DNA of 20,116 bases from a virus. A program made the translations under genes and the position numbers. The notes below the pieces were generated by a model. It searched no databases. It was not told the origin of the DNA and saw only the letters and a program-made list of their open reading frames with translations. The stretch is from positions 1-20,116 of IMG/VR virus record IMGVR_UViG_3300018415_000056. The stretch is one strand, 5' to 3'. Shown here one piece after another: positions 3,779-13,971 of this stretch (position 1 is the stretch's first letter; each line of letters begins with the position of its first letter).

Positions 3779-6700
3779 TTAATCTCCCATGATGAATGTG
3801 ATGCGAATTTCGCTTGCGATTGTTGTGATTCGCCTATCAGAAGGCACAAAGAGAATTCGATTTTCTTCATCAACACTGACAATCCGAGGGGCATCTGGAT
3901 CTGCTCTGAAAACGATTCCAGCGCCATCAATGTCTGTAGTCACCGTTGGGAAATCGACACCAAATGCCTGACTGAGTTGAGTAATTGTTGCTGCTGGATC
4001 TTCGATGCTGACCGTTGGTAGTGAGACAAAGACTTCGCCGTTAACAAGCGTTCGTGCCTCTGGCGCTGCGACAACAATACTGCCCACTTGCGCAGTTTCA
4101 AATTCTCGACCAAGCGACAATAAAGGATCAATAACATCGACGGTAACTGTCGTTAACGACACGTCTACTGAATTACTAATGCCACCTCTGAAAATCGGCA
4201 GATCGATCGATACAGATGTCATATCGACCAAGGCGCTGACCGTCGTTGTCGTTTCGATCGTCGGCAGCGTGATCGTCAGATCGCCTGCACTGGTATTTGA
4301 TATGACTTGCGTTGCAACGAGTGGTTGTGTGATCGAGACTGCTTGGAAGTTGGTTTCTGGTGCAGCAGGTCCAGACGCCTCGCCAATTGGAACGCCTACT
4401 GCAACCGAATGTGTGACCGAGGCGGTTGCGCTCCCCTTCGCTGTGCTGAGCGGCGGATCGACGCTGAGGCTAATGGGTATCGGGAACTCTGTTGGATTCT
4501 CAATCGTCGATGCTTGAGTAATATCAACTGTCGTGAAATTAATGTCTGCTGTGACAGACGTCGCCGCGACTGCAGGGCTAACGGTCACACTGATCGGTGT
4601 CGGGACTTCGGTTACGTTTTCTTGACTAATTAAGACCGGCGTAATGTCAATCGATGTCAAATCGACTGTAGTCGTCAGTGCGATCTCAGCAACAGCCGGT
4701 GTAACACTGATGTCTCCAAAATCAGTCAGTGTCAGTCTTTGGTCTGCTTGTACGCTGACGGCAAGCGAAACGGCCTGCTCTGGGAATGCAACATCTGGCG
4801 CGACTGAAACATCAGACCCAGCAATAGGCGAATCGATATTTACACTGGTTAAATCTGTGGTTACAGCGATCGATGTGCTTGTGACTGGTGCCGTGCTGTC
4901 AACACTGATCGCTGTGACTGCTGCGTTCGAACTTGCGTTGACTAAGACTGCAGGCGCAACACTTGCGATTGACAAGCTGTTTAGCGGGAATTGCACCTCT
5001 TGGTCGACTTGTCCGACCAGATAGGCTGCATTTGCTGTCAGATTTTCGCTGTATCGATCATCTGTATTGATACCGACGTCAATCCGAGATCCTGAGCTAA
5101 CATGCGGTGCAAACCATGTGTGGCGATTAGATGCATCACTGGACTGATCTGTAACGAGCCGACGGACGTCACCTGAACTGCCTGATAACAGTGGGTTTTC
5201 GAGGACCCCGTACTGTTCTCCAACGTCTTGGTATACTCCGGAACTGATCTCTGTACGACGACGTAAAAGACCTAAGCCAAAAATCTCATCGTCGAGAACA
5301 TAGCCTTCTAGTACTTTTGGTGTGCCATAAGTGCTGGGGGAGTAGGTATCAGACTCAGCGGTGACTCGACCTTCTTGATTGAGTGATCCATCATGCTCCC
5401 ACAAATCATCTGTGTTTGGATCGGCATCATTGAAAGTGTCGTTGGCGTAACTCGATCCATACGATGATTTAAACCGTGAATCACTAACGAGATCATCGTA
5501 CTGGTCTGAGGTCGCCCAGAACAGCGCTGTTGCTTGTGCCTGTCTCGCTGTCGTGCTGTCGTACCGCGCATCCGCATACAAAATTGGCAACGCATGATCG
5601 GCAATGTAATGTCCTGTCTTCCCCTGTGAACTTAAGTTTGGCGAGCTAACAAGGAACGGATGACTAAACCACGTTGGATTGCTGCTAGCCACATTGTTTG
5701 ACGCGGAATGTCGAACTCCAGCAAGCGCTGCTGTACTTGCCTTAACCGTTGCCCAATTATCACTGAACCAGACCATTGGAGGACCAACAGAGCCATCGTT
5801 ATGAACCGGCATGAATGATGGCAAATAGTTGACGTTATGTTCGTCATCCGCGACAGCGCCTGTATAGAACATCGTCAAGCGATCAAGCTTGTCGTCCTCA
5901 AGGTTCATGATCGCTGGTGGCTGGTAAACGATTTCGCCGTTGCTATTGGTTACAGAAGTGATTTGTCGATACGTTCCAGAATCATCGATCGCGAACGCTC
6001 TCTGCTGGAACACTGAGTAGCGGTCCATGAAATAAGTCTGACCGTTAACCGTGCCGCCTCGGTTCCATCCGCCAAGGAACGTGGATTCTGGTTTATGTAT
6101 CCAAGTGTCTTCACCGGCTATAAGTGCATTCGGGTTAAGGACGTGAACAATACCAACAAAGAAATCTTCGATATCGACAGAGTCGTATGATGAGCCATTC
6201 CAAAACCGGAACGTCGTGCTTTCAGCAGGGACAAAGGAAATATGCACTACACGGCCAGAGCGCAGTTCATTTTGTGGCGTGGTGTAATCACTGGCGTGAC
6301 GCACATGATAATACGGCGTGCCACTGGCCTTTAGCTGAATGCGACCGTCTTTATTCCAATGCGGACCCCAAGTAACAACCGAATATCCAGCACCAGTATC
6401 AGATCCAAGTTTGATACCGCCATTCCATGTGCCATTGGTATTAACGGGTGCGTTAAACCAGCTTGAAGGCAGCGCCGGACGGTTGTTGTCATTAACTGTG
6501 AACGTTGTCGCCGCACTGGTCGTCTCAGTTGTAATGATGTTCAGATTCGATGCGCGACCGAGCGGACTTGTAACGTCAATATCCGATGGCCCAGAAACCG
6601 TTGCTGTGATGTCGTTCTTTACAACAAGGGTCGGCAGGGTAACGGACACGCTATGAGTGACATCAGCGGACGCACCACCAGATACACTCAGGGTCGGTGC

Positions 6701-8134
6701 TGTGACCTCCATGATCGGCACATCGATCGTTGGAAACTCAGTGACTGTGACACCGATCTGGGTGACACCGATCGTATCGCCAATCGTATCTGCGTCGACA
6801 CTGACAGACGCGCCAGCACCGATTCCTACTACAAACGGATCAATTGCAGGACCAGTGAATGTAAGAGCGACAGAACCGCCAGCTTGAATAGCAATAACGG
6901 GGGTTGAGATCGATACAGAGTGCGTGACATCGACGACAGAGCCAGCGCTGACTGAAGATACTGGTGTATCGATATCTGGCGCTGTGAAGTCTGCTGAGAA
7001 GCTTGATCCAGCGGAGTTGCTAGACAAGAAAGTTGAAATGGTGGGCGTTGTGAATTGAGTTGCTTGAGTGGATCCGGCTGAAACGCTGGCCGCGATCGCT
7101 GTTGTCGCCTCGATCAATGTCACAAACGCTTGCGCGCTTCCAGCACTGACGCTTGCTTCTGCAGTCGTAATTTCAACCGCTATCGCCGTGCTAAACGAAA
7201 TTGCACTGCCAGCAGTCGCTGTTGCCGCTGGGCTGGTAATGTCAATTGCTACTGCATTGGAGCCAAAGCTTGCGCCACCAGATTGTGTTGTCGTTGGGAC
7301 TGTGATGTCAGGCGCTGTGAAATCAACACTGATTGATGCGTTAACACCGGCTGACCCCAATGCCGAATCGATCGTAATTGCAGCAAACAAGACATCTGCT
7401 GATGCGCCTGCTGTGACCGTCGTCGTCGGAATACTCAATACCATGACAAACGGAACTTGATCGAATTGCTCACTGAACGCGATTGATCCACCCATGCCTG
7501 AGTGGTTGCCACAGTAGTAATACAGGTCTGGAGTCGACGTGGTGACAACGATTTCTAGGTACGCACCCGCCTGTCCTGCTGTACCAGAGGTTGTAACGCC
7601 TGTGGTGTACGCTGACCCGCTGCTATGTGTTCCGTCAGAGGTTGTGCTCAAGGCAAACGGATGACCGCTCAGAGACGAGTCTGATAAGTCGAACCGGTAA
7701 GTTCCCTCTTCGTGCAATGACAGCGATGCTTGCTTTGTGCCATCGATGTAGTACTTGTTGCCCGAGCCGTCGTTCGAAACGGTCGCAGTAAAGGTTTTGC
7801 TTGCTTTCCCTGCATCAACAGCGATCGACGCGCTACCTGAACCCGCTCCAATAGCAGCCGCGACCGTAATCGATCCAAAAGCAGACACATCTGCGTTAGT
7901 GACCGCTTGCGCCGTTGCTAAAGCTTGTGTAATTGCGAGCGTTGTAAAGCTAACGTTTTGTGTTGCGTCTACCGAGTCGCCAACAGCTTGTTGAGCAACA
8001 ACACCAGTTTCACCAATGCCTAACTGACCAAGAACACCGGCACCAAGGGTTCCTTCATTGCCAATAGTGGTTGTTGTCTGTTGCTCTTGTTCTGCTGAGA
8101 ACGGAGCTTCAGAAAAAGCATTAAAGCCAAGCAT
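3779..8134 (-). CDS. Giant tail fibre with cupredoxin domain
   Basis: A 1451-aa protein whose ATG overlaps the preceding stop (TAATG). Residues 1-50 (LGFNAFSEAPFSAEQ and a Gly-rich part) resemble openings of marine phage fibres. Residues ~112-222 form a cupredoxin-like beta domain with H158 (SGHPF) and C208-x2-H211-x2-M214, the pattern of a type 1 copper site. Residues ~222-545 are a Ser/Thr/Ala-rich beta repeat stalk. Residues ~546-1045 are a globular region of different composition, rich in Trp, Tyr, Asp and His, which I do not recognise. Residues ~1046-1390 are a second stalk of the same repeat type. A C-terminal cap (ADPDAPRIVSVDEENRILFV) ends the protein. The length is typical of side or central fibres. 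A receptor-binding or spacer role is inferred. Confidence 0.82.
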   Translation of the reverse strand: MLGFNAFSEAPFSAEQEQQTTTTIGNEGTLGAGVLGQLGIGETGVVAQQAVGDSVDATQNVSFTTLAITQALATAQAVTNADVSAFGSITVAAAIGAGSGSASIAVDAGKASKTFTATVSNDGSGNKYYIDGTKQASLSLHEEGTYRFDLSDSSLSGHPFALSTTSDGTHSSGSAYTTGVTTSGTAGQAGAYLEIVVTTSTPDLYYYCGNHSGMGGSIAFSEQFDQVPFVMVLSIPTTTVTAGASADVLFAAITIDSALGSAGVNASISVDFTAPDITVPTTTQSGGASFGSNAVAIDITSPAATATAGSAISFSTAIAVEITTAEASVSAGSAQAFVTLIEATTAIAASVSAGSTQATQFTTPTISTFLSSNSAGSSFSADFTAPDIDTPVSSVSAGSVVDVTHSVSISTPVIAIQAGGSVALTFTGPAIDPFVVGIGAGASVSVDADTIGDTIGVTQIGVTVTEFPTIDVPIMEVTAPTLSVSGGASADVTHSVSVTLPTLVVKNDITATVSGPSDIDVTSPLGRASNLNIITTETTSAATTFTVNDNNRPALPSSWFNAPVNTNGTWNGGIKLGSDTGAGYSVVTWGPHWNKDGRIQLKASGTPYYHVRHASDYTTPQNELRSGRVVHISFVPAESTTFRFWNGSSYDSVDIEDFFVGIVHVLNPNALIAGEDTWIHKPESTFLGGWNRGGTVNGQTYFMDRYSVFQQRAFAIDDSGTYRQITSVTNSNGEIVYQPPAIMNLEDDKLDRLTMFYTGAVADDEHNVNYLPSFMPVHNDGSVGPPMVWFSDNWATVKASTAALAGVRHSASNNVASSNPTWFSHPFLVSSPNLSSQGKTGHYIADHALPILYADARYDSTTARQAQATALFWATSDQYDDLVSDSRFKSSYGSSYANDTFNDADPNTDDLWEHDGSLNQEGRVTAESDTYSPSTYGTPKVLEGYVLDDEIFGLGLLRRRTEISSGVYQDVGEQYGVLENPLLSGSSGDVRRLVTDQSSDASNRHTWFAPHVSSGSRIDVGINTDDRYSENLTANAAYLVGQVDQEVQFPLNSLSIASVAPAVLVNASSNAAVTAISVDSTAPVTSTSIAVTTDLTSVNIDSPIAGSDVSVAPDVAFPEQAVSLAVSVQADQRLTLTDFGDISVTPAVAEIALTTTVDLTSIDITPVLISQENVTEVPTPISVTVSPAVAATSVTADINFTTVDITQASTIENPTEFPIPISLSVDPPLSTAKGSATASVTHSVAVGVPIGEASGPAAPETNFQAVSITQPLVATQVISNTSAGDLTITLPTIETTTTVSALVDMTSVSIDLPIFRGGISNSVDVSLTTVTVDVIDPLLSLGREFETAQVGSIVVAAPEARTLVNGEVFVSLPTVSIEDPAATITQLSQAFGVDFPTVTTDIDGAGIVFRADPDAPRIVSVDEENRILFVPSDRRITTIASEIRITFIMGD

Positions 8135-10812
8135 TAATCTTCAGCCTGAAATATTCTTCCCTGCTCAGCGGTAGGAGCAGTGAAGTTAGAAGTGTATTTA
8201 GCAACGCCGTTTAGAATCTGCAGATTATCTAGGTAGCCAGTAAAGTAACCATTAGCACCAATGTCGTAGCCAATTCTAGTGCCAAGATTTGCACTGCCCT
8301 GCTCAAATGTTTCAGCTCCAGTGTATGAAGTTCCAACCTCTGTCCCATCGACGAACATTTTAGTGGTTGATCCAGAACGACATACCGCTAAATGCACCCA
8401 TTGATTTCGTGGCAGATCTCCAGCGGCACTTTGGATTCTGAAAGTAGTGTGAAAAAAGTTAACGGTCTCGCTACCTTGCGTTGAATAAATCGTCCATCCA
8501 TTTGACCCAGATCCATTGCCACCAATAATTGTCTGGTTCGCCGTTGTAGCTGTGCCAGTCGAATACACCCACATCTCAACCGTGAAATCCCCGTGAAAAT
8601 CAAAACGGTTGTCATCAGGAATCGTAACGTAATCGCCAGTCCCATCAAAATACATGGCCGTCGACCCAAATTTATATTGTGTTGTTGACGTTGCCGCATT
8701 TCCTTCAGGTTCTAAACGGAAATTTCCTGTCCTATCAAAGATGCCTGCGTTGTCCATAGGGAGGTACAGGTCTGCATTAGTATTACCAACTGGAGACGTT
8801 GGTGGTGTGAACGCTGATGTATAAACAGCATTGCCGACATCATATTTTAAATCAGCAACATATCCTTGGAAGTTTCGACCCAAAGTCCCCATATCGCCAA
8901 TTAACATGTCAACTGTATTGTTTAAATTATCACTGGCAGTGAATGATATTTCTTGCTCGCCATCAACGAATACCTTGTTAGCACTCCCGCTTCGTGTCCA
9001 TGCGATGTGATGCCATCCGTTATCCATGACATTTTTTGTGCCAGTGCCTAATACTGAAGTGCTGAAGCCAACTTGTAGCACACCGCTAAGTGGCTGTAAC
9101 CATATCCCACCTGCGCCGCCGCTGTATTTTGAAACAAGCCCTTTATAGGACGCATTATCACCACTAGATGCATACACCCAAAACTGTAAGCAGAAGTCAC
9201 CTGTTCCTGCACTGATTGCAGAATCATGGGAAATGACAACCTCATCACCAGTTGCTAAATAAACAGACCCTTTATTCGCACCAACGTCATACTCAGAATC
9301 TTGTGCATAGGGGTTGAAAGCATCTATTCTTAGTATCCGTGTCGATGTTTCAACAGCAGTGATGTCTCTGTTATTGCTACTCGTGTCTTTCCAATTTTTC
9401 CCATTCCACATAAAAATCGTATTAGTAATTTCGGTCAAAGGCTCTGTCGGAGGTGTGAATGCTGATGTGTAGACCGCCGTACCATTAACAATTCTTATAT
9501 CAGCTAATCTACTTCCTTTATTCAAGGCGTATCCACCTGCCCTATCTACGGCGCCGAATACAATGTCTCCTAAGTTAATGTCTGCGGTGTTACTGCCTGA
9601 TGCCGCAAGTTCACCGTCAATAAAAAGACGGAGAGTTCCGCTTTCTCTAGCTAAAGCAATGTGATGCCATTTATCTAAATCTGTATCTGATGATTTGTAA
9701 CCCGAACCGTTTAGCCCAGCAAATGTACCTTTTAATTCAAATACACTATTTCCCCATGTCTCTAATGCGTTAGACGCACCGCTTTCAATGCTTATTGGGC
9801 GGCAATACAATTCTTCAGTATATTGACGATAAAACCATAGTTCTGCTGTCCAATCTCCACTAGTGCCAGTTTGACTTGTGTAGTTTGTGTAAAAATACCC
9901 ACCTGCCCGACTTGCTCCTTTATGGAAAGACCCCCAATTATTTAGATATGGATGGAAAGCTGTTTGAAGGGGATCGTTAGTTGACGTAACAGTTAACGCG
10001 TTACTTGACCGGTCAATGAATGTCTCATTGTCTAAACTATTTGTATCTGATGTTCCAATAGAAAGAGTAACGTCAGGCCAAAGGGCTGCAACAAAATTCA
10101 GCGTGAATGTTGAATTTGCTGTGCCAGTGTTAACACCATCACTAGCGGCAAATGTGACCGTCATTGTGCCACCAGATCCACTAGTGACTGGGGTAACAGT
10201 AAACACGTTATCGACATTAGTTGTTGTTGCAATGCCCGTGTCACCTGACTCAGTGGCAGACCAAGTCAATGCGAATCCTTCAGGGTCTGTACCGGTCATT
10301 GTGACGACTGTCGCCGTGCCATCAGTTGCTAGCTCGTATGTGGCACTGTTTCCTGAGACGGTAGGAGTTTGGTTCACTGTCGCAATTCTATACCAGCCTG
10401 AGCCGCTCCATATGTACAGATTGTTATTAGCAGTCACAAACGCCTGATCGCCAACTTGGTTCGCAGTCAGGGGCAAATCTGATGTGGCGCTATATGATGT
10501 AGTACCACTGACCTTTTCTGCAGGCATGACAATAAATACATCTTTCGATCCAGCGCCCCAATTAACAGCACTATTGCTGTTAGACGACTCAAATATCGTC
10601 GTGCGAGCAAGTGTTCCTGCTGTTTCATCCCATGTGCCCAGACCAATTTCCCAGTCTGTACCATCGGTGAGCTGATAGTAGGTTGTATCCCCATCCGCTA
10701 ATGCAGACGCAAACGTCTGGAATCCTGTTGGCGCTGTTCCGCTGACAGTAATCGTTCCTGTGCCAGTCGTTGTCGTTGTCTCTTTGACACGGTTTTTCAG
10801 TCTAAGCGCCAT
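8134..10812 (-). CDS. Tail fibre with three LamG/concanavalin-like domains
   Basis: An 892-aa protein. Residues 1-101 are the same N-terminal anchor module as the 511-aa fibre. Residues ~108-146 are a short 'GDQAFVTANNNLYIWSGSGW' unit. Residues ~148-241 are a cadherin/Ig-like domain (TDPEGFALTWSA, then TVTFAASDGVNTG). Three LamG/concanavalin-like jelly rolls follow at ~247-465, ~478-680 and ~681-880. Each shows the 'W.A/F.V E.WVY' strand (TAELWFYRQ, CLQFWVYAS, TVEMWVYST), a 'WHHIA/WVHLA...R' strand and an 'LFIDG/VFVDG/MFVDG' strand, and closes with a 'YTS(A/N)FT(P/A)PT' repeat. Such domains bind carbohydrates in other proteins. Glycan binding on the host is inferred. GGAG precedes the ATG. 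Confidence 0.85.
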   Translation of the reverse strand: MALRLKNRVKETTTTTGTGTITVSGTAPTGFQTFASALADGDTTYYQLTDGTDWEIGLGTWDETAGTLARTTIFESSNSNSAVNWGAGSKDVFIVMPAEKVSGTTSYSATSDLPLTANQVGDQAFVTANNNLYIWSGSGWYRIATVNQTPTVSGNSATYELATDGTATVVTMTGTDPEGFALTWSATESGDTGIATTTNVDNVFTVTPVTSGSGGTMTVTFAASDGVNTGTANSTFTLNFVAALWPDVTLSIGTSDTNSLDNETFIDRSSNALTVTSTNDPLQTAFHPYLNNWGSFHKGASRAGGYFYTNYTSQTGTSGDWTAELWFYRQYTEELYCRPISIESGASNALETWGNSVFELKGTFAGLNGSGYKSSDTDLDKWHHIALARESGTLRLFIDGELAASGSNTADINLGDIVFGAVDRAGGYALNKGSRLADIRIVNGTAVYTSAFTPPTEPLTEITNTIFMWNGKNWKDTSSNNRDITAVETSTRILRIDAFNPYAQDSEYDVGANKGSVYLATGDEVVISHDSAISAGTGDFCLQFWVYASSGDNASYKGLVSKYSGGAGGIWLQPLSGVLQVGFSTSVLGTGTKNVMDNGWHHIAWTRSGSANKVFVDGEQEISFTASDNLNNTVDMLIGDMGTLGRNFQGYVADLKYDVGNAVYTSAFTPPTSPVGNTNADLYLPMDNAGIFDRTGNFRLEPEGNAATSTTQYKFGSTAMYFDGTGDYVTIPDDNRFDFHGDFTVEMWVYSTGTATTANQTIIGGNGSGSNGWTIYSTQGSETVNFFHTTFRIQSAAGDLPRNQWVHLAVCRSGSTTKMFVDGTEVGTSYTGAETFEQGSANLGTRIGYDIGANGYFTGYLDNLQILNGVAKYTSNFTAPTAEQGRIFQAED
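10510..10812 (-). repeat. Fibre N-terminal anchor module, copy 2
   Basis: The first 101 residues of the LamG fibre repeat the anchor at 13672-13971 with conservative changes and a one-residue insertion near residue 28 (APTG against AVDG). Identity falls away abruptly after this module, as expected for a swapped receptor-binding domain behind a fixed dock. Confidence 0.8.
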
Positions 10813-12435: not shown

Positions 12436-13971
12436 TTAATCTCCGTAAATCATGGACAACCCAAACGCTCTTGCTGGGTTGTTGTTGTGGAAAAGTTTGT
12501 TTGCTCCGCTGATATTTGATGCAGTTAAAGTGAAGGTGACGTAGTCATTTACTGCCGGACCTACTAGCGGGCCGTTTAAAATATCTGCGCTGAAGCTAGT
12601 TAGAGGCAATGTTGTGTTAATTGCGGAGTCTGGTATCCACATTAAAAACACGTTGTCGTCACCGTCAGTAACATGAACTGCTAATTTGCCATCTAATGCC
12701 CACCTAATTGAGCTAGGCCAAGAATCACTGTAATCGCCACCAACTGGTGTCACTGCGTCAAAAGACAATGAATTTGAAGTCGTTGAACTCACAGACGACA
12801 GATCATATGCAGTGTTTAAAAAAATCGTTTCTAAATACTCATCCGCCTTAGTTTGATACAACGCAGTGCCGTCATTGTTAAACCCAATTCCACGGAGATC
12901 GATGTTTGTCGGCGTAAAGGTATGTGTCGGCGTTGAACCTAGCGTGGTGATGTCATACGCAGTGGATGCTGTGAAGGTGTAAATTTTACCTAACGTGCGA
13001 TCAGCAAAGAAAAATTTAGTGCCGTCAGGACTCACCTCAAGGCCAAGAATAAATGTGAAAGTAATGTTTGAATTCGCTGTCAGATCGTAGCTATCGATAT
13101 CATTCGCATCGTAGGTGCTTAGGTTATAAGGGGTTGAACATTTGAACCGCTTCAAAACACCGTCATGGGTCACTAAAATTAGACTTGATCCACTGTCTGT
13201 CCAACGGATATCTCCCTCATTATTTGGGCTACCGTAATCTGTTTCATCAATAACTTCTGATCCAGAGGCAATGCTAAAATAACCTCCGTAGGCAGGGGAG
13301 TTATTCATCACATACTCATTGATGCCTAAACTTCGATTCATGATGACTAATCGAGTCGCATCTGGGCTGATTTCAACCCCGTAAGCCAACGCCGGTTCCG
13401 GACTCAATTCATCGTTTGAATTTTTAGGTTGGCCGATCATTGTATCTATATTGGCGACATTATATGCGCCAGTAACAACCGACTCTCCCTTCAGCGTAAA
13501 CGTAAAATCGCCCACTGCAGGGATGTTAGAAAACAAAATATCTGTTGTCTGTTGATTGCTGTTAGGTACAACGGTGCCGGTGAAGTGCGTTCCAGAAGAT
13601 AAGTCAAAGGTCAAACTATTTGGTGCGCCAGAGCTTGAGCTTCCTGCGCTGGCCGCTCCACTCTCTGTGATGACTCGTGACGCAGGCAGAGTAATGAAAA
13701 CATCTTTAGTGCCAGCACCCCAGTCAACCGCTGATCCAGAGTTAGAGCTTTCGTAGACAGTAGTGCGAGCTAATACAGCGCCAGACTCAGTCCAAGTACC
13801 TAAACCAGTTTCCCAGTCTGTACCGTCCTCAATGACATAGTACGTTGTGTCGCCGTCCGCTAGTGCACTAGTGAAACTTTGAAATCCATCGACCGCGCCA
13901 GCAAGCGTGAAACTGCCGGTGCCGGTTGTTGTCGAGGTTTCTTTGACACGATCTTTCAGAACTAAAGCCAT
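12436..13971 (-). CDS. Tail fibre/receptor-binding protein, beta-propeller-like
   Basis: A 511-aa protein. Residues 1-100 are an N-terminal anchor module (LKDRVKETSTTTGTGSFTLA, then SALADGDTTYY, then GAGTKDVFITLPA) that recurs at the start of many phage fibres and is shared with the LamG fibre in this window. Residues ~101-118 are a Ser/Gly linker. Residues ~195-450 contain repeated blade-like units of the form 'SPD(A/G)T(R/K)', with ISPDATRLVIMNRSLGINEY, VSPDGTKFFFADRTLGKIYT and FNNDGTALYQTKADEYLETI, plus recurring 'TAYDITT/TAYDLSS' ends. This suggests a beta-propeller, probably the sugar- or protein-binding head. The C-terminus (~450-511) is another beta domain. GGAG lies before the ATG, immediately after the terminator. 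Receptor binding is inferred. Confidence 0.78.
   Translation of the reverse strand: MALVLKDRVKETSTTTGTGSFTLAGAVDGFQSFTSALADGDTTYYVIEDGTDWETGLGTWTESGAVLARTTVYESSNSGSAVDWGAGTKDVFITLPASRVITESGAASAGSSSSGAPNSLTFDLSSGTHFTGTVVPNSNQQTTDILFSNIPAVGDFTFTLKGESVVTGAYNVANIDTMIGQPKNSNDELSPEPALAYGVEISPDATRLVIMNRSLGINEYVMNNSPAYGGYFSIASGSEVIDETDYGSPNNEGDIRWTDSGSSLILVTHDGVLKRFKCSTPYNLSTYDANDIDSYDLTANSNITFTFILGLEVSPDGTKFFFADRTLGKIYTFTASTAYDITTLGSTPTHTFTPTNIDLRGIGFNNDGTALYQTKADEYLETIFLNTAYDLSSVSSTTSNSLSFDAVTPVGGDYSDSWPSSIRWALDGKLAVHVTDGDDNVFLMWIPDSAINTTLPLTSFSADILNGPLVGPAVNDYVTFTLTASNISGANKLFHNNNPARAFGLSMIYGD
13672..13971 (-). repeat. Fibre N-terminal anchor module, copy 1
   Basis: This part of the 511-aa fibre codes a ~100-residue module closely alike to the one at 10510-10812. 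Shared blocks include SALADGDTTYY, DGTDWE, GLGTW, LARTT, ESSNS and KDVFI. It is a within-genome paralogous module and probably docks both fibres to the same tail site. Confidence 0.8.

Follow-up and report, generated by a model that had tools for sequence, protein, structure and literature searches.

A predicted cupredoxin domain with a type 1-like copper ligand set in a putative tail fibre and other structural proteins of marine phages

Cupredoxins dock their partners via the ligand-loop end of their beta sandwich, and in the absence of copper their sites can take Zn(II) or Hg(II). Here we describe a viral domain that resembles the plastocyanin/azurin family (PF00127, which includes amicyanin) in its predicted cupredoxin fold and in a His followed by Cys-x2-His-x2-Met, the loop being of the length found in amicyanin (CTPHPFM). 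As a modular beta-sandwich insert in virion proteins it is also comparable to the Ig-like and LamG modules of phage fibres, which, unlike this domain, carry no such metal-ligand set and differ in fold topology. A search of literature outside subscription on cupredoxins, plastocyanin-like domains or type 1 copper together with phage fibres, tails or cyanophages returned no description of such a case, which is weak evidence that a cupredoxin domain in phages is new.

Ligand residues, fibre gene and predicted fold

The sequence is an IMG/VR virus record, and the window is the whole stretch analysed (20,116 bases). A preliminary description had placed H158, C208, H211 and M214 within amino acids 112-222 of a phage tail fibre. 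Direct reading of the translation recovers all four residues with the spacing claimed, on a CDS that lies on the minus strand, a detail the description did not give. The features are as follows.

3779..8134, minus strand: CDS for the fibre-like protein of 1451 aa in which the domain lies (open reading frame)
7469..7801, minus strand: cupredoxin-like domain, aa 112-222 (fold prediction, profile match to a plastocyanin-like family, relatives)
7661..7663, minus strand: codon of H158, putative first ligand, in SGHPF (read directly; 76/77 in the ligand-blind set described below)
7511..7513, minus strand: codon of C208, putative thiolate ligand and sole Cys of the protein (read directly; 77/77)
7502..7504, minus strand: codon of H211, putative second His ligand (read directly; 77/77)
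7493..7495, minus strand: codon of M214, putative thioether (axial) ligand (read directly; 76/77)

The residues follow the order His...Cys-x(n)-His-x(n)-Met, here H-x49-C-x2-H-x2-M, and this pattern is beyond chance. C208 is the single Cys in 1451 aa and therefore no internal disulfide is possible. H170 (DGTH), a possible additional ligand, was ruled out, as intact relatives have Trp at that place.

Phage-type genes of the record encode a portal/adaptor, a major head protein, structural proteins, a LamG protein and an internal virion protein. The domain-bearing protein lies in this structural cluster and is long, beta-rich and repetitive, with Thr/Val/Ala-rich repeats. Its earlier naming as a phage tail fibre rests on gene neighbourhood and repeat structure, which are our grounds for calling it a putative tail fibre. 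Matches to the PHROG tail fibre families 30742 and 693 cover aa 43-220 only, essentially the domain itself, and no homology to known fibres was found outside the domain, either among the isolate matches listed (aa 111-269) or in PHROG (aa 43-220).

Two further observations concern the fibre and its neighbours. Between two repetitive stretches of the fibre lies a non-repetitive block of ~500 aa (aa 555-1050, ~4985-6472, minus strand), for which Pfam, PHROG and PDB sequence searches gave no match and which could be a receptor-binding or enzymatic domain. Adjoining the fibre gene is that of an 892-aa protein (8134-10812, minus strand) with three LamG/concanavalin-like domains (PF13385, E 1.2e-37), whose first ~20 aa (MALRLKNRVKETTTTTGTG) are near-identical to those of the protein at 12436-13971, minus strand (MALVLKDRVKETSTTTGTG); this common start is probably an attachment module. 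On a Pelagibacteraceae contig, a protein beginning MALIVNDRVKETSTTTGTG holds the cupredoxin-like domain, and therefore this start seems able to take different passengers.

An AlphaFold2 model computed from the fibre domain and 32 relatives (33 sequences) is an all-beta sandwich with a pLDDT of 92.5 and a pTM of 0.86. Foldseek comparison of this model with the PDB ranked rusticyanin first (E 6e-4, probability 1.00). Azurins, amicyanins, multicopper oxidases and copper nitrite reductases make up most of the top 50, and azurin variants with plastocyanin and amicyanin loops are among the matches. The non-copper Shewanella protein SO1698 is also in the top 50, and antibodies or immunoglobulin domains appear from rank 19 down. 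TM-scores to solved cupredoxins are modest (0.43-0.55), and rusticyanin is only 12-15% identical to the domain. Among viral models, the matches were cyanophage fibre and structural proteins, including those of P-SSM2, P-TIM68 and S-TIM5. The predicted structure has the Greek-key beta sandwich of a cupredoxin. Both the confidence of this model and the cupredoxins at the head of the PDB matches back the fold first proposed from sequence, and on this modelling aa 112-222 very probably adopt it. Antibody chains came up in PDB sequence searches too (E ~0.5-1), driven by a 'YYC' motif. We rejected an immunoglobulin domain because the structure ranks cupredoxins first, there is one Cys only, and relatives match Copper-bind.

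Family membership and spread of the domain

The fibre domain sequence matched no model in Pfam or NCBIfam, and did not itself reach the curated cut-off of PF00127 (Copper-bind). A phmmer search of the PDB gave pseudoazurin as the best match, which was not significant (E 0.91). Relatives of the domain carry the link further. PF00127 is touched by 6 of the 33, the best phage relative at E 0.0062, and a Woeseiaceae lipoprotein of the domain family scores 24.9 bits against the family cut-off of 21.2. The domain in this lipoprotein was reached in two independent ways on the same DNA, as a relative of our domain and as a PF00127 match, and by phmmer it matches plastocyanin 2PLT at E 8e-4. In that alignment its first His is shifted by two residues, as would be expected from a missed short gap, but this is not proof. 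Domains from flavobacteria that have SHPF and C-x2-H-x2-M reach 30.0 bits against the same cut-off. Moreover, hhalign aligns the phage family to flavobacterial plastocyanin-like domains with H, C, H and M all in register (E 4e-5, the value for one comparison). Compared directly with true pseudoazurins, the family profile matches weakly, with a probability of 22% and the first His not in register.

The profile relationship that the preliminary description had proposed to look for was absent in Pfam for the fibre domain itself and present by hhalign, where the ligands fall in register. Judged from these alignments, homology to the Copper-bind family runs through intermediates, with a firm link via the cellular relatives, and the domain most likely constitutes a cupredoxin family absent so far from Pfam and NCBIfam. 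We rejected as weak or one-off the matches to FlgK_2nd (PF21159, E 0.13), CBM_4_9 (best E 0.0067, in 4 relatives) and Purple acid phosphatase N (E 0.0015, in one relative).

Annotated phage records with the domain number 213, all of them marine going by their names, and come from phages whose host groups include Synechococcus, Prochlorococcus, Pelagibacter and Methylophilales. These records, together with the PHROG families, support the earlier expectation that such domains occur in marine phage structural proteins. Its position varies among the carrier proteins. When the full fibre was used, every isolate-phage match listed begins between aa 111 and 126 and stops between aa 215 and 269, and in two relatives that align over more of the fibre the domain is 79-85% identical against 19-42% elsewhere. 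Cellular and phage copies are interleaved on the tree, suggesting more than one transfer between phage and cell. Taken together, these data point to a mobile module shared among unrelated marine phage structural proteins and marine bacterial surface lipoproteins.

Within genome contigs, a simple motif rule assigns a lipoprotein signal to 24 of the 63 complete ORFs, and some of the carriers resemble phage genes inside MAGs or single-cell genomes. Copies on contigs filed under Euryarchaeota, Maricaulis and Epulopiscium genomes are closest to phage ones; these may be phage or contaminating contigs. Cellvibrionales contigs encode a secreted protein with two or three tandem copies of the domain, which ends in a C-terminal membrane segment and a basic tail and is apparently a cell-surface protein with several such sites.

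Conservation and loss of the ligands

Our first viral and genome scans were set aside as biased because some of the retrieval patterns contained the ligand loop. They were replaced by ligand-blind scans, in which only the stretch between the ligands served as query, and by isolate phages from plain tblastn. The ligand-blind search gave 77 distinct viral copies, with H in 76, C and H in all 77, and M in 76. All four ligands are kept in 76 of them, and the single exception has lost both the first H (to D) and the M (to L). A scan aimed at a divergent cyanophage form gave 60 distinct copies that have neither a ligand at H158 nor C-x2-H-x2-M, and the isolate phages split into the same two classes, intact and ligand-free.

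Intermediate states are rare. Among copies at no more than 75% identity (n=127, a set that still takes in pattern-selected rows), 104 have 4/4 ligands, 21 have 0/4 and 2 have 1/4, with none at 2 or 3. The isolate rows alone comprise 17 with 4/4, 8 with 0/4, counting the second domains of S-RIM44 and S-RIM32 which are covered only in part, and 2 with 1/4. Partial decay is seen in S-SZBM1, where the first H is kept and C, H and M are lost, and in PSS2, where only M is kept. In Synechococcus phage ACG-2014e, the domain is split by inserted sequence that separates the first His from the Cys loop, and aligns as two pieces that jointly hold all four ligands.

On the tree of the 127 copies, four positions show ligand loss: a clade with full support that includes S-RIM2, S-RIM8, Syn30 and others; S-SZBM1, adjoining the intact S-H38; PSS2, adjoining an intact contig; and the second domains of S-RIM44 and S-RIM32. 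The alignment has few columns, most inner forks are weak and the clade counts do not stand for independent events; the program itself arrives at three label changes, and the starred branches alone force at least 2. Four separate losses is a reasonable reading, not a proof. The joint loss of ligands across a 50-residue gap matches the prediction of a shared, selected metal site, and from this sequence pattern it is likely that the domain holds a functional one. The metal would most likely be copper, one ion per chain.

The ligand-free form sits in cyanophage structural or tail fibre proteins of ~490 aa, and most of its copies have an insertion (GPDG..DDG) near the DGTH loop. That one large cyanophage clade retains the domain with none of the ligands means that the metal is dispensable in a fibre. 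This abundant clade is also what speaks for the cupredoxin fold being a purely structural or adhesive beta-sandwich module, whose ligands pack the loop end or bind metal by chance. However, packing does not account for a Cys, two His and a Met, spread across a 50-residue gap, being retained or dropped together in four separate places. Moreover, the ligands survive at 35-40% identity while their neighbours change, for example the Pro after the first His. The clade itself is an imperfect witness, since with its insertion and its poor AlphaFold model (pLDDT 54) its fold may differ. We therefore regard a purely structural module as unlikely.

Proposed role and comparison with known systems

The reading we prefer, at a rough probability of 0.6, is that of a cupredoxin with a complete type 1-like site on an amicyanin-length loop, acting as a copper-stabilised docking module in the fibre. 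Bound copper would clamp together the loops that bear the ligands, and the end of the beta sandwich held in this way would form the exposed docking face of the fibre domain, and this face would contact a host-surface component or a neighbouring virion subunit. Metal binding, copper as the metal, any redox activity and a role in adsorption are what we infer. The preliminary description had gone further, suggesting that a metal-binding shaft domain beside a presumed N-terminal anchor might stabilise a fibre trimer, or might sense or react to the cell surface. Phage virions may carry bound copper because the domain recurs in marine phages and its ligands are nearly always kept or lost together. 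As to what the copper would do, a docking or stabilising role rather than electron transfer is a tentative choice that we hold at below even odds; it is favoured because the fibre offers no obvious redox partner and one clade manages without ligands.

A bolder picture is of a large, undescribed marine phage family with redox-active blue-copper centres on the adsorption apparatus, of a kind common to the surface cupredoxin lipoproteins of the surrounding bacteria, where copper state or copper-dependent docking recognises hosts or times attachment. We consider this quite improbable. A redox-active site, in which virion Cu(II) is reduced at the host surface so that the docking face changes and adsorption is triggered or tuned, would make use of a ligand set that is complete and type 1-like. 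Possible partners or competitors would be the related domains found on surface lipoproteins of bacteria, and true pseudoazurins are encoded by many of the marine bacterial genomes that have the domain. However, the domain has no known partner and no second redox centre, and the ligand-free clade does without the site, making such a mechanism very improbable. Another soft metal such as Zn(II), which copper-free cupredoxin sites do bind, as they do Hg(II), or the single Cys of the fibre as a redox-active or adduct-forming thiol, is hardly probable given that the pattern, with its axial Met and its His-Cys-His-Met order, is that of copper and that homologues exceed the plastocyanin/azurin family cut-off.

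If copper is bound to the docking module we favour, a large group of marine phages has a metal in its attachment machinery and adsorption is tied to trace-metal chemistry. Existing isolates are suited to a direct test (Baldr, HTVC028P, Mosig, Melnitz, P-SSM2 and Bellamy), with the ligand-free clade as a natural control. Moreover, many marine proteins now called hypothetical gain a recognisable domain.

In comparison with described systems, the domain is contained in PHROG families 30742 and 693 (tail fibre), 677 (baseplate wedge-fibre connector), 708 and 6005, which differ from it in being clusters of whole structural proteins that carry neither domain-level nor metal annotation. It shares with the PF00127 family the marine lipoprotein relatives that exceed the family cut-off. 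In contrast to that family, the fibre domain itself scores below detection, has an extra Gly/Thr-rich stretch of ~45 residues (STTSDGTH..YTTGVTT..GAY) and lies inside a virion protein with no known electron-transfer partner. Rusticyanin, unlike the fibre domain, carries electrons as a soluble periplasmic protein and has a longer Cys-His-Met loop; it is nevertheless the top structural match of the domain model, and we take the His motif GHPF of the domain to resemble the GHSF of rusticyanin.
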